This document shows positions 2,258 through 21,477 of a DNA stretch of 64,000 nt, piece after piece. This stretch comes from Clostridium sp. AT4 (GTDB lineage Bacteria > Bacillota > Clostridia > Lachnospirales > Lachnospiraceae), in contig NZ_LN999828.1 in NCBI RefSeq assembly GCF_001517625.2, forward strand, positions 760,303-824,302, in the 5' to 3' direction. Positions within the stretch are counted from its first letter, which is position 1, and each line of letters starts with the position of its first letter. The notes under the pieces were generated by a model. The model searched no databases, was not told the DNA's origin, and saw nothing but the letters and a program-made list of their open reading frames with translations. A program made the translations under genes and the position numbers.

Positions 2258-3610
2258 TTGTTAGAGATTAAGATAAATGAGTCAGAAAATGCCGCAAGGA
2301 TCATTGTAGTAGGTGTAGGCGGCGCAGGCAACAACGCAGTAAATCGCATGATCGACGAGAACATCGCAGGCGTGGAGTTCATCGGCATCAATACGGATAA
2401 GCAGGCCCTTCAGTTCTGCAAGGCTCCCACAGCCATGCAGATCGGTGAGAAGCTGACAAAGGGACTGGGTGCAGGCGCCAGACCGGACGTAGGCGAAAAG
2501 GCCGCAGAGGAAAGCTCTGAGGAGATCTCACAGGCATTAAAGGGTGCGGATATGGTATTCGTTACCTGTGGTATGGGCGGCGGAACCGGAACCGGAGCTG
2601 CTCCTGTTGTTGCGAAGATTGCCAAGGATATGGGAATCCTGACAGTAGGCGTAGTGACAAAGCCCTTCCGTTTTGAGGCAAAGGCCCGTATGACAAATGC
2701 TTTAAACGGAATCGAATGTTTAAAACAGGCAGTGGATACTCTGATCGTTATCCCCAATGACCGCCTTTTGGAGATCGTTGACCGCCGGACCACCATGCCG
2801 GATGCCCTTAAAAAGGCAGATGAGGTGCTTCAGCAGGCAGTTCAGGGAATTACGGACCTGATCAACGTTCCAGGCCTTATCAATCTGGACTTTGCAGATA
2901 TTCAGACCGTTATGATCGACAAGGGCATCGCACACATCGGTATCGGAAAGGCAAAGGGCGACGACAAGGCCATCGAGGCTGTAAAGCAGGCCGTTTCCAG
3001 CCCGCTGCTTGAGACAACTATTGAGGGTGCAAGCCATGTGATCATCAATATCTCCGGTGATATCAGCCTGATCGAGGCAAATGATGCCGCAAGCTATGTA
3101 CAGGAGCTGGCAGGAGATGATGCAAATATCATCTTTGGTGCGATGTATGATGAAAATGCTCAGGATGAGGCAAGCATTACCGTAATCGCTACTGGCCTGG
3201 ATGAGCACAATTCTACCTCTTCTGTGACAAAGGCAATGGCAGGCTTTACAAACTTTAAGCCCAAGGCACCTGCTGCAGCTTCCGCAGCCCAGACAGAACG
3301 TGCCGCAGCTCCGGAAGCCGCAGCTACTGCTTCCACAGGCTTTACAAGACCGGCTCAGCCTTCCTTTAGCCACAGCTTTGGACAGCAGAGCACAGGAAAC
3401 AGCACGCCATCCTTTACAGCGCCAAGATTTGGACAGAATACGGGAAGCTTTAGTTCTTCCGGTACAGCTTCCGCTCCGGCAGCAACTGCAGCCGGCAGCA
3501 ATGCAGGCAGTACAGCTGCTCCGACTCAGAATCAGACACCTTCCTTCCGTCCGACTGCCAATAAGGAAATGCAGATCAACATTCCGGATTTTCTGAAAAA
3601 TAAGAGATAA
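2258..3610 (+). CDS. ftsZ: Cell division GTPase FtsZ
   Basis: Tubulin-like GTPase that polymerises into the Z ring at midcell and recruits the divisome. The tubulin signature GGGTGTG falls at residues 107-113 and [12 protein letters not shown] near residues 20-31. After the conserved GTPase and C-terminal domains (to about residue 320) comes an Ala/Ser/Pro/Gln-rich linker, then a conserved tail ([13 protein letters not shown]) that fits the peptide binding FtsA/SepF-type partners. I place the start at TTG 2258, 9 bases after AAGGAGG (2242-2248). This gives [10 protein letters not shown], as in other clostridial FtsZ proteins. The upstream in-frame ATG at 2231 lies before that site and is unlikely. 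Confidence 0.97.
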
Positions 3611-14739: not shown

Positions 14740-14749
14740 AGGTAGGATA

Positions 14750-14810
14750 CCAGGGGGAAAAAGGTTGAAATCCGACGCAGGCTTGCCTGCAGGAGGATTT
14801 TGAATCCTGG
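14750..14810 (+). ncRNA. Structured 5' leader upstream of prfC
   Basis: Three nested complementary segments form one interrupted stem: CCAGG/CCTGG (14750-14754, 14806-14810), AAATCC/GGATTT (14768-14773, 14795-14800) and GCAGG/CCTGC (14777-14781, 14786-14790). No T tract follows, so it is not an obvious terminator. A role in RF3 expression or mRNA stability is only an inference. Confidence 0.4.
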
Positions 14811-14904
14811 GCCTCGCCAAAAACAGGAGTAAGCAGCCATTTTTCAAAGAAAAACATCCCGCCCCTTTAAGGGACGCAATCAGCAGGAACGGAGGATAAG
14901 ACCA

Positions 14905-18497: not shown

Positions 18498-18526
18498 TTG
18501 ACAAACCGGTATAAGTGCGGTATCTT
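18498..18526 (+). promoter_or_regulatory. Promoter of the metNIQ leader transcript
   Basis: A consensus TTGACA (18498-18503), 17-base spacer and TATCTT (18521-18526). Transcription should begin near 18533, before a small stem (TTCCTA/TAGGAA, 18541-18561) and the leader peptide. Confidence 0.75.
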
Positions 18527-18591
18527 TAAAACTGACATTATTCCTAGCAGTATTATAGGAAATGATTACCAGTCCAGGCAGGAGGATTTTC

Positions 18592-18675
18592 ATGAATCAG
18601 TTCAAAGCCATGCAGAATATGGATATGATGAACAGCATGTACATGTGCTGTGTATCCGCGTGCTTTGAAAACTGA
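18592..18675 (+). CDS. Met/Cys-rich 27-residue leader peptide of metNIQ
   Basis: Short reading frame from ATG 18592 to TGA 18673, with an ideal AGGAGG (18580-18585) six bases upstream. The product begins MNQFKAMQNMDMMNSM and has 7 Met (1, 7, 10, 12, 13, 16, 18) and 3 Cys (19, 20, 24) among 27 residues. It lies between a consensus promoter and an intrinsic terminator (18739-18780) that precedes metN. That is the layout of a ribosome-mediated attenuator sensing charged Met- or Cys-tRNA. I see no SAM-I or T-box sequence in this leader. Antitermination pairing was not found by eye, so the mechanism is inferred. A functional metal- or membrane-active micropeptide is the alternative. Confidence 0.72.
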   Translation: MNQFKAMQNMDMMNSMYMCCVSACFEN

Positions 18676-18738
18676 ATGGGAAACGATCTGTATGGATTTG
18701 GAATCATGATATCAATATATTTTGGAGAACGTATCATT

Positions 18739-18780
18739 CGGGGTTGCAGGTCCGTGCAGGACTGCGGCCCCGTTTTGTTT
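18739..18780 (+). terminator. Intrinsic terminator/attenuator ahead of metN
   Basis: CGGGGTTGCAG (18739-18749) pairs with CTGCGGCCCCG (18762-18772) with two G-U pairs, and the stem may extend towards a GTGC-containing loop. TTTTGTTT (18773-18780) follows. It ends 51 bases before metN and 63 bases separate its base from the leader peptide stop. Confidence 0.8.
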
Positions 18781-18831
18781 CTTAGCCGGAGGATGGGAAA
18801 CAGGGGAAGGATTAGAGAAAGGAATGAAGAA

Positions 18832-19848
18832 ATGGATCAGAATAAAGAAGAGGCCATCATACGCCTGGAAGGTCTGGGCAAACAGTTTGCCACGTCAAAC
18901 GGGACCGTGACTGCTTTAGATGACATCAATCTGGAAATCCGCCGGGGAGAGATTTTTGGTATCATCGGTCTTTCCGGAGCAGGAAAGAGTACCCTGGTGC
19001 GCTGTATCAACTATCTGGAGGAACCTACCTCCGGCCGGGTAATCTTTGAGGGAAAAAATCTTTCCGCCATGAAGGAAAAGGAAAAGCGTCTGGCAAGACA
19101 GTCCATGGGAATGATCTTTCAGCAGTTTAATCTGCTGGCCCAGAGAAATGTGCTGCAGAACGTGTGCTTCCCTATGGAGATTGCCCATATGGACAGCAGA
19201 CAGGCAAAAGAGCGGGCAAAGGAGCTGTTAAAGCTGGTCGGACTGGAAGAGAGGATGAACGCATATCCGGCCCAGCTTTCCGGCGGACAGAAGCAGAGAG
19301 TTGCCATCGCAAGAGCCATGGCAACCAATCCCAGGGTTTTATTGTGTGATGAGGCAACAAGCGCCCTGGATCCCAATACGACAAAGTCCATTTTGGAGCT
19401 GCTAAAAAAGATTAACCGGGAAATGGGGATCACAGTGATCATGATCACTCATGAGATGGCAGTCATTGAGGCCATCTGCGACCGGGTGGCGATCATCGAC
19501 CACAGCCATATTGCAGAGTCGGGCAAGGTATCGGATATCTTTTCCGGTCCCAAATCTGATATTGGACGCCAGCTGATTTTAGGAGATACCTCTGATCAGA
19601 CAAAGAATTTCGGCGGTTCCCGTATGATCCGTGTGATCTTTGACGGACGGGAATCCTCTGAGCCGATCATCGCAAATATGATCCTGGCCTGCAAGGCCCC
19701 GGTGAATATCATGCATGCGGATACCAGAGATATCGAGGGAAAGGCTATGGGGCAGATGCTTCTGCAGCTTCCTGAGGATACCGTGGATGCAGACCGGATC
19801 TGCAATTATCTGAGAACAGCCGGAGTAACATTTGAGGAGGTGCACTAG
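18832..19848 (+). CDS. metN: Methionine ABC transporter ATP-binding protein
   Basis: ATPase of the MetNIQ importer for L- and D-methionine. Walker A GLSGAGKST (46-54), Q-loop near IFQQFNLL, signature LSGGQKQRVAIARAM and Walker B VLLCDEATSALD are intact. The C-terminal NIL domain (about 258-338) binds methionine in relatives and gives trans-inhibition, so import can be limited post-translationally. Start chosen at ATG 18832, giving 338 residues, near the family norm. An upstream in-frame ATG at 18676 would put the terminator hairpin inside the coding region. Confidence 0.94.
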   Translation: MDQNKEEAIIRLEGLGKQFATSNGTVTALDDINLEIRRGEIFGIIGLSGAGKSTLVRCINYLEEPTSGRVIFEGKNLSAMKEKEKRLARQSMGMIFQQFNLLAQRNVLQNVCFPMEIAHMDSRQAKERAKELLKLVGLEERMNAYPAQLSGGQKQRVAIARAMATNPRVLLCDEATSALDPNTTKSILELLKKINREMGITVIMITHEMAVIEAICDRVAIIDHSHIAESGKVSDIFSGPKSDIGRQLILGDTSDQTKNFGGSRMIRVIFDGRESSEPIIANMILACKAPVNIMHADTRDIEGKAMGQMLLQLPEDTVDADRICNYLRTAGVTFEEVH

Positions 19849-19850
19849 AG

Positions 19851-20516
19851 ATGACCTTTGATCAGACAACGATCGATATGCTTTTAAAAGGAATTTGGGA
19901 AACCATATACATGGTTTCACTTTCCTCATTTTTATCCTATGTGATCGGTATTCCCGTGGGAATTGCCCTTGTAGTCACAGACAGGGATGGAATCAGTCCC
20001 TTTCCGTTGTTTAACAAGGTGCTTGGCGTTGTGATCAATCTCCTTCGCTCCATTCCCTTCATCATCCTTCTTGTAATGGTCATCCCATTTACCCGCATGA
20101 TCGTAGGAAAGATCATCGGACCCAATGCAGCGGTAGTGCCTCTGGTGATTTCCGCGTTTCCTTACATCAGCCGTATGGTGGAGTCCTCTTTAAAGGAGGT
20201 TGACGCAGGAGTGATCGAGGCAGCCAAGTCCATGGGCGCGTCTGCGGGACAGATTATATGGAAGGTGCTTCTTCCAGAGGCCAAGCCATCCCTTTTAGTG
20301 GGGGCTGCCATTTCCATTACAACGATCATCGGCTACTCTGCCATGGCAGGTACGGTAGGTGCAGGCGGTCTGGGAGATATTGCCATCCGTTACGGTTACC
20401 ACAGATATGAGACAGAGATGATGCTCATTACAGTAGCCCTTCTTGTAGTGATCGTACAGATTATTCAGGAAGTATTTATGCGCATATCAAGAAAGAGCGA
20501 TAAGAGGATCCGGTAA
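19851..20516 (+). CDS. metI: Methionine ABC transporter permease
   Basis: Membrane subunit of MetNIQ, 221 residues with five or so transmembrane helices. The EAA-type coupling loop, EAAKSMGASAGQIIWKVLLPEAKP, should dock onto MetN. It begins two bases after the metN stop, which implies translational coupling. AGGAGG sits inside the end of metN. Confidence 0.94.
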   Translation: MTFDQTTIDMLLKGIWETIYMVSLSSFLSYVIGIPVGIALVVTDRDGISPFPLFNKVLGVVINLLRSIPFIILLVMVIPFTRMIVGKIIGPNAAVVPLVISAFPYISRMVESSLKEVDAGVIEAAKSMGASAGQIIWKVLLPEAKPSLLVGAAISITTIIGYSAMAGTVGAGGLGDIAIRYGYHRYETEMMLITVALLVVIVQIIQEVFMRISRKSDKRIR

Positions 20517-20589: not shown

Positions 20590-21477
20590 ATGAAAAGAAA
20601 GACATTAGAAACAGCAGTAATCGCAGCAGCATTAGCTGCATCCCTGTTAACCGGCTGCTCCAAACCGGCCGAGGAGACAACAGCAGCGGCAGAAAAGCAG
20701 GAAAGCAAAGCCGATGCAGGACAGGAGAAGAAAGAGAGCCCTGAAAAACTGGAAGAGCTGACCGTAGGCGCAAGCCCTGCCCCCCATGCGGAGATTCTGG
20801 AGGCTGCCAGAGAGGTTTTGGCTTCTAAAGGCTATGACTTAAAGATTGTAGAGTACACAGATTATGTGCTTCCGAACAATGCGCTGGATTCCGGTGATCT
20901 GGATGCAAACTATTTCCAGCACCAGCCTTATCTGGATTCCTTTAATGCCCAGAACGGCACAGAGCTTTCCGGTGTGGCGGTGATCCACTATGAGCCCTTT
21001 GGTATCTATGCAGGAAAGAGCGCTTCTTTAGACGCGATTCCGGAAAAGGGAACCGTTCTTGTTCCAAATGACCTGACAAATGAGGCAAGAGCCCTTCTTC
21101 TTTTAGAGGCCCAGGGTCTGATCACCTTAAAGGAGGATGCAGGTCTGGAAGCAACGAAAAATGATATTGTAGAAAATCCAAAGAACCTTGATATTGTAGA
21201 GATCGAGGCAGCCCAGCTTCCCCGTTCCTTACAGGACGGCGATGTGGCAGTTATCAACGGAAACTATGCCATCGAGGCGGGCTTAAAGGTAAGCGACGCT
21301 TTGGCAACAGAGGACGCGGAATCTCTGGCAGCCCAGACCTACGGAAACGTGATCGCCGTAAGAGCGGGTGAAGAGGAAAGTCCAAAAACAAAGGCTCTCA
21401 TTGAGGCGCTTACGAGTGATGAGGTAAAATCATTTATGGAAAGTACCTATGAGGGTGCGGTTGTCCCTGTATTCTAA
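20590..21477 (+). CDS. metQ: Methionine-binding lipoprotein
   Basis: Extracytoplasmic substrate-binding protein of the NlpA/MetQ family, anchored by lipid at Cys23 in the lipobox LLTGC. A charged, Ala/Glu/Lys-rich spacer (25-55) precedes the binding domain. VGASPAPHAEILE and DANYFQHQPYLD are typical MetQ segments that line the methionine pocket. The 73 bases before it contain two short stems (20532-20547 and a CAGGGCCCTG palindrome), possibly moderating mRNA decay between metI and metQ. Confidence 0.94.
   Translation: MKRKTLETAVIAAALAASLLTGCSKPAEETTAAAEKQESKADAGQEKKESPEKLEELTVGASPAPHAEILEAAREVLASKGYDLKIVEYTDYVLPNNALDSGDLDANYFQHQPYLDSFNAQNGTELSGVAVIHYEPFGIYAGKSASLDAIPEKGTVLVPNDLTNEARALLLLEAQGLITLKEDAGLEATKNDIVENPKNLDIVEIEAAQLPRSLQDGDVAVINGNYAIEAGLKVSDALATEDAESLAAQTYGNVIAVRAGEEESPKTKALIEALTSDEVKSFMESTYEGAVVPVF

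Follow-up and report, generated by a model that had tools for sequence, protein, structure and literature searches.

How can a methionine importer be tuned to methionine supply at a locus where neither of the controls expected of it is present? In Firmicutes, T-boxes are usual in the control of amino-acid genes and the SAM riboswitch (RF00162) is the usual terminator control of methionine genes; both are the expected controls of methionine genes in Lachnospiraceae. Our window, the whole stretch of 64,000 nucleotides that was analysed, comes from a Lachnospiraceae genome which we take to belong to the Enterocloster group. Its positions 18498-18831 separate a gene for a PepV-type dipeptidase from metNIQ. 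No Rfam family matches this interval even at E values up to 10, and the covariance models of the SAM riboswitch and of the T-box (RF00230) were both rejected there over that range, in agreement with the first-pass annotation of this DNA, which had seen neither. The single RF00162 match in the genome lies elsewhere, ahead of a gene that was recognised by eye and is presumably metK, and nine T-box matches, four of them above the cut-off, also lie elsewhere. The MetH match of this genome (contig C7 1592766-1595198, L142) is partial, falls below the model cut-off and contains one TGA. Comparison with related sequences leads us to propose that the metNIQ leader is probably a ribosome-mediated transcription attenuator that reads charged tRNA-Met, possibly also tRNA-Cys.

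The metNIQ leader and its reading frame

The locus is laid out as follows.

18498..18526, +, sigma-70-type promoter, TTGACA-17-TATCTT (consensus scan, 10 of 12 bases matching)
18541..18561, +, hairpin TTCCTA..TAGGAA at the 5' end of the transcript (sequence motif)
18580..18585, +, Shine-Dalgarno AGGAGG of the leader frame (sequence)
18592..18675, +, leader peptide frame, 27 codons, stop TGA (translation; conserved upstream of metN)
18608..18616, +, region 1, codons Ala6-Met7-Gln8 plus one base (helix with region 2 in the alignment)
18632..18651, +, hairpin within the frame, 8 pairs (alignment; candidate RNA polymerase pause hairpin)
18687..18705, +, region 2, after the stop codon, partner of region 1 or region 3
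18742..18759, +, region 3, terminator 5' arm and loop, antiterminator partner of region 2
18740..18780, +, intrinsic terminator, regions 3 and 4 then TTTTGTTT (fold and alignment)
18832..19848, +, metN, methionine ABC transporter ATPase (TIGR02314 the best MetN model; NIL domain)
19851..20516, +, metI, permease (MetI model NF008049, above cut-off)
20590..21477, +, metQ, substrate-binding lipoprotein (NlpA/MetQ model PF03180, above cut-off)

Family models support the assignment of the operon. For the metN product TIGR02314 is the best MetN model but scores below its cut-off, and the NIL domain, which is typical of MetN, is above cut-off. The promoter called in the first-pass annotation was recovered by the consensus scan, and its -35 and -10 boxes are aligned in relatives; promoter-like sites, taken all together, show no enrichment relative to shuffles in the same scan. 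Among the 41 leaders for which 60 or more upstream bases are available, 21 have a motif like the hairpin at the 5' end. The GC-rich hairpin that the annotation had placed before metN is likewise present as GGGG..CCCC at 18740-18771, with TTTTGTTT at 18773-18780 and metN beginning at 18832. A simple terminator scan does not list this hairpin, which is visible by folding and by alignment.

In 11 of 41 leaders, all from outside Enterocloster (L017, L019, L028, L032, L049, L051, L067, L069, L073, L076 and L077), the -10 box of the metNIQ promoter is overlapped by a near-palindrome, GCGTANAATACGC. It is perhaps a candidate operator for a second regulator. A search of six genomes for patterns of this type gave no excess over a reversed-pattern control.

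The leaders compared were drawn from 79 loci with a downstream metN, several of which represent one place fetched twice, and which reduce to 43 at 95% redundancy. Eleven loci had been removed by hand before this count, and L064, L088 and L090 had no metN within reach. L052 was dropped because its terminator was mis-called by the script, though one is visible, leaving 42 leaders; alignment A4 holds 41 of these, L041 being excluded as too divergent.

As first annotated, the window has an AGGAGG-driven frame of 27 codons starting with the ATG at 18592, and its product, MNQFKAMQNMDMMNSMYMCCVSACFEN, contains 7 Met (start included) and 3 Cys. A second in-frame ATG lies 30 bases upstream, without a preceding AGGAGG. 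Across the 42 non-redundant leaders, Met accounts for 403 of 1395 codons (28.9%) and Cys for 9.7%. At six internal positions Met is retained in 90-100% of leaders, and one of the Cys residues, part of an invariant Met-Cys, is present in all 42 and uses both Cys codons. Each leader thus has a short translatable frame rich in the relevant codons and preceded by a ribosome-binding site, a Shine-Dalgarno-like motif being found in 42/42 with a permissive pattern. Every leader has ATG as its chosen start and a frame that stays open for 27 codons or more, the share of ATG starts being partly procedural because the script that chose them scores Met content and the Shine-Dalgarno motif; nine of the 42 have a further in-frame ATG upstream. 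The other two frames are open over 28 codons in 0/42 and 27/42 leaders. Inside the frame (DNA alignment columns 45-103), length changes are multiples of three in 41/41 leaders, and in the spacer (columns 104-240) lengths are split 13, 15 and 13 over the three phases. Comparison upstream of metN in relatives, as the first-pass annotation had suggested, therefore finds the frame and its Met and Cys codons kept; the synonymous signature that it had also looked to is weak or unclear.

The frame ends close to region 2. In 41/41 leaders the end of the stop codon falls between -14 and +21 relative to the start of region 2, before it in 28 and in or past it in 13, so that a terminating ribosome would crowd or cover region 2.

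Alternative helices of the leader RNA

A blind scan of the 41-leader alignment for complementary columns returned longest runs of 13, 12, 11 and 8, which correspond to the terminator, regions 2:3, regions 1:2 and the hairpin within the frame. Shuffling the column order 1000 times produced no run longer than 9 and never a fourth-longest run of 8 or more. Block tests gave a run of 10 for regions 2:3 (at most 7 in shuffles, 0/1000) and of 11 for regions 1:2 (at most 8 in shuffles, 0/1000). Separate scans of 14 and of 41 leaders rank the same four helices at or near the top. Helices 1:2 and 2:3 share region 2, and helices 2:3 and 3:4 share region 3.

The column-order shuffle replaces a simulation on the MetN tree that keeps helices. 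That simulation returned 0/200 and 0/500 for the four helices, with five MetN proteins empty in the first run, and is invalid and unused because 68.5% of 200 randomly re-partnered column sets beat its null completely. A pair test of the R-scape style on the tree found no significant pair anywhere, the undoubted terminator included, and for that reason is powerless and counts neither way.

The intrinsic terminator between the leader frame and metN is called by the script or visible by eye in the 42 leaders analysed. Its cells are paired in 92.5% of cases, and 32 show two-sided changes, a number that 0/500 shuffles reach. The first-pass annotation had found no convincing antiterminator and had allowed for a departure from the classical trp type. 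Neither point holds, since just downstream of the stop codon there are both an antiterminator, which is conserved, and a helix that competes with it. In the window, 18688-18700 pairs with 18747-18759 through 13 consecutive pairs, with 4 more past one mismatch, and the duplex (z -5.3) is equalled by 0/200 shuffles of the spacer. Over the alignment, 89.0% of 2:3 cells are paired, compared with 25.5-52.1% when the strands are slid. Compensatory change is weak here, with only 3 two-sided cells, reached by 206/500 shuffles; the antiterminator bases are constrained on several sides and change mostly from G-C to G-U. Against shuffled spacers the 2:3 duplexes of the 42 leaders have a median z of -1.5 and fall below -2 in 13, and those of L003, L041 and L079 are worse than shuffles. 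An antiterminator that excludes the terminator is thus present in the leaders generally, weak or absent in L003, L036, L041 and L079.

The strand that forms the antiterminator is contested by a helix with the leader frame itself. In the window, 18608-18616 pairs with 18687-18695 over 9 pairs, and in the alignment regions 1:2 form an 11-column helix with 91.4% of cells paired. The hairpin within the frame has 96.3% of cells paired and 22 cells with two-sided changes. Taken together, regions 1:2 and this hairpin are paired in 93.5% of cells, compared with 22.5-54.6% when slid, and show 28 two-sided cells, the 22 of the hairpin included, which 0/500 shuffles reach. The covariation that the first-pass annotation had looked for is therefore found, as two-sided changes, in the terminator, in 1:2 and in the frame hairpin; it is weak in 2:3, and no single pair is significant in the tree test. 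With the stop codon placed progressively further downstream, the mean number of 1:2 pairs declines from 10.5 to 9.7 to 8.7 of 11 (22, 6 and 13 leaders), a trend that is only suggestive because the leaders are related sequences.

The behaviour of these helices was modelled with a ribosome on a Met codon, RNA made only up to region 3 and the RNA behind the ribosome ignored. Under this model the antiterminator exceeds 0.5 in 33/41 leaders when the ribosome sits at the first internal Met codon, and in 31/41 when it sits at the last. In complete free RNA the terminator is predicted always to win (median 1.0; 0.88 in the window); antitermination would therefore have to be kinetic and set before region 4 is made. 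Before region 4, free RNA prefers 1:2 over 2:3 in only 20/41 leaders in the model, and the window's own leader gives 0.00 for 1:2 and 1.00 for 2:3. Because its free RNA prefers 2:3, ribosome-free termination is unexplained in the window's leader; it might come from timing, from a pause at the hairpin within the frame or from pairing outside the model. For this leader the modelled folding agrees with the attenuation scheme only partly.

A model for the switch and its alternatives

Comparison of the leaders establishes the gene context, the frame and its Met and Cys codons, the terminator together with the other three helices, and the position of the stop codon close to region 2. From this arrangement we infer ribosome stalling, a switch between helices, methionine as the signal and a pausing role for the frame hairpin. 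Transcription would start a few bases past 18526, and a ribosome following the polymerase would translate the Met-rich leader. Under methionine shortage this ribosome would stall on the early Met codons and cover region 1, leaving region 2 free to pair with region 3 as it emerges; the 2:3 helix would then block the terminator and allow metNIQ to be transcribed. When methionine is plentiful, the ribosome would reach the stop codon. Either it would crowd or cover region 2 as it terminates there, or region 1 would hold region 2 once the ribosome has been released, and regions 3 and 4 would form the terminator. The first-pass annotation had suggested that pausing on Met or Cys codons controls the terminator, and conservation of the frame, of the Met codons and of the terminator argues for this. 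The importer would probably be turned on when ribosomes run short of methionine.

Alternative helices and a conserved terminator would also be expected of a metabolite riboswitch for methionine, SAM or another ligand, in which the helices switch without translation and the frame is incidental. Paired RNA does encode much of what is conserved in the peptide (Ala-Met-Gln, Cys-Cys or Cys-Arg). However, the start codon, the ribosome-binding site and the frame are kept, lengths change in threes inside the frame and not outside it, Met codons outside the helices are retained, and the invariant Cys is written with both of its codons. The stop codon also stays close to region 2, and no Rfam riboswitch matches, so that we consider a riboswitch quite unlikely. 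It is very unlikely that the frame encodes a small functional protein, for instance one that binds metal through its Met and Cys residues, with a terminator of its own and metNIQ expressed by read-through. The sequence is rich in both residues and its Met-Cys is invariant, as such a protein might require, but the residues other than Met and the one Cys change at rates of 0.379, 0.386 and 0.439 at codon positions 1, 2 and 3, and near-equal change at positions 1 and 2 compared with 3 counts against a conserved peptide function. The C-terminus is variable in sequence as well as in length, region 2 is kept as a pairing partner of the terminator, and searches with family models found no protein family that matches the peptide. 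Free variation of the residues other than Met is as expected if the leader is valued for its control codons.

The attenuator might instead answer mainly to cysteine, or to a general slowing of translation, rather than to methionine. With 9.7% of leader codons specifying Cys and one of these invariant, a ribosome stalled at the invariant Cys would also free region 2. Met codons are, however, threefold more numerous and lie over region 1, the operon encodes a methionine importer and the window has no Cys codon ahead of region 1; these points make a signal other than methionine unlikely.

The classical amino-acid leader-peptide attenuators are those of the trp, his, leu, thr, phe and ilv operons of Proteobacteria, and at the level of sequence the metNIQ leader carries their features. 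As in those operons, the frame is short and rich in codons for the amino acid that the operon serves, helices 1:2, 2:3 and 3:4 are mutually exclusive, and the terminator is intrinsic. It differs in that the amino acid is methionine, which is also the starter of the peptide, and in that the operon encodes an importer. Region 1 lies inside the frame ahead of most Met codons, and an additional conserved hairpin is found within the frame. Depending on the species, the stop codon is placed ahead of region 2, within it or slightly beyond it. Since methionine starts every leader peptide, methionine starvation would also starve initiation on the leader. This poses the question of how a switch operates when the amino acid that it senses also starts its leader. 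If the model is correct, the switch may be tuned to an intermediate shortage of methionine and re-close once methionine is exhausted.

A precedent is provided by Streptomyces lividans, whose reannotation describes a metL leader before metNIQ as a proposed attenuator; metL similarly contains Met and Cys codons, but its transcript is leaderless, its 29 codons include 3 Met and there is no typical intrinsic terminator (PMC8079986). In a survey of Actinobacteria, conserved RNA structure was not observed at methionine operons (PMC1262725). In Firmicutes, leader peptides are reported for hisS/hisZ of bacilli (PMC2965389) and for ilv of Staphylococcus aureus (PMC5794164), both examples of leader-peptide attenuation in this phylum for other amino acids. 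The antiterminator proposed for S. aureus ilv pairs with the U tail of the terminator and not with its 5' arm (PMC5794164). Within the literature searched we found no worked-out methionine leader-peptide attenuator, the proposed S. lividans metL being the sole precedent, and a search mostly without subscription papers and preprints returned no paper on the Lachnospiraceae element. Methionine, perhaps with cysteine, is on this comparison of sequences probably a new signal for leader-peptide attenuation. It is a more tentative and rather doubtful claim that the leaders form an undescribed Lachnospiraceae attenuator family monitoring both methionine and cysteine, and the first case for methionine uptake with an identified antiterminator. 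If true, the model would extend a textbook mechanism to a further amino acid, in a major family of gut bacteria, and the leader would provide a ready reporter of methionine starvation.

Distribution among the Lachnospiraceae

The leader peptide is present in 12 of 17 genomes of the genus, upstream of metN in 12/12. A search for related leader peptides matched 8/348 genomes of the family, of which six are real (two in the genus) and two spurious (L020, L021). Covariance model R1, built from 14 leaders, matches 27/397 family genomes at E<=0.1, with metN downstream in 21 of the 27; L040, L042, L043, L044, L047 and L048 were set aside as spurious leader matches. The window's genome holds one confident copy of the R1 element (E 7.5e-23; next 0.14). 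A DNA pattern, run on one genome per species over 84,980 species, returned 45 stretches. Forty have metN within 900 bases, three carry the same peptide but end short of a possible metN, and two (L053, L078) were judged to be chance and set aside as spurious. Named hosts of the leader include Hungatella hathewayi, Hungatella effluvii, several Lacrimispora, Clostridium clostridioforme AGR2157, C. citroniae WAL-17108, C. asparagiforme DSM 15981 and Clostridiales bacterium 1_7_47_FAA.

As the covariance-model and pattern queries themselves favour Met-rich matches, a fair count has to start from MetN. Chosen by MetN alone, 28 close orthologs are found among the 397 family genomes at E<=1e-140, and the leader precedes 23 of them (21 by the model and two, L161 and L166, by eye). 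One ortholog, L159, has a T-box before metN instead of the leader (2731-2997, minus strand, 106.4 bits, above cut-off), and the remaining four (L167, L168, L169, L170) have neither leader nor Rfam match. The T-box also senses tRNA charging and in L159 precedes the same metN, but it binds the tRNA directly, needs no leader peptide and is not found at the window's metNIQ. If the leader reads charged tRNA-Met as proposed, L159 would represent a natural exchange of tRNA-charging sensors with the signal kept.

Among 26 genomes without a model match, nine have a more distant MetN (52-60% identical), and these nine show neither leader nor Rfam match. In L116, L117, L119 and L121, distant metN copies without a leader lie, by eye, directly 3' of the end of an apparent cysteine synthase gene.

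Model R2, at E<=0.01, matches 15/392 genomes of the order (10 in the family, 5 outside) and 4/291 genomes of the class (2 in the family, 2 outside). Those from outside the family score weakly (E 6e-4 to 0.009), have no metN in the fetched stretches and were judged to be chance, as was a second weak match in the window's own genome (E 0.0066). Nothing convincing was therefore found outside Lachnospiraceae in the 392 order and 291 class genomes sampled, family members included. Three metagenome-assembled genomes named Paenibacillaceae (L066, L074, L080) carry leaders and metN resembling those of Lacrimispora, and for this reason are probably mislabelled. In L041 a Clostridiales-1 RNA (RF01699, 121.6 bits) lies at 1720-1891, between the terminator of the leader and metN, and a weak match to the same family, below cut-off, is seen in the window at 14745-14838.
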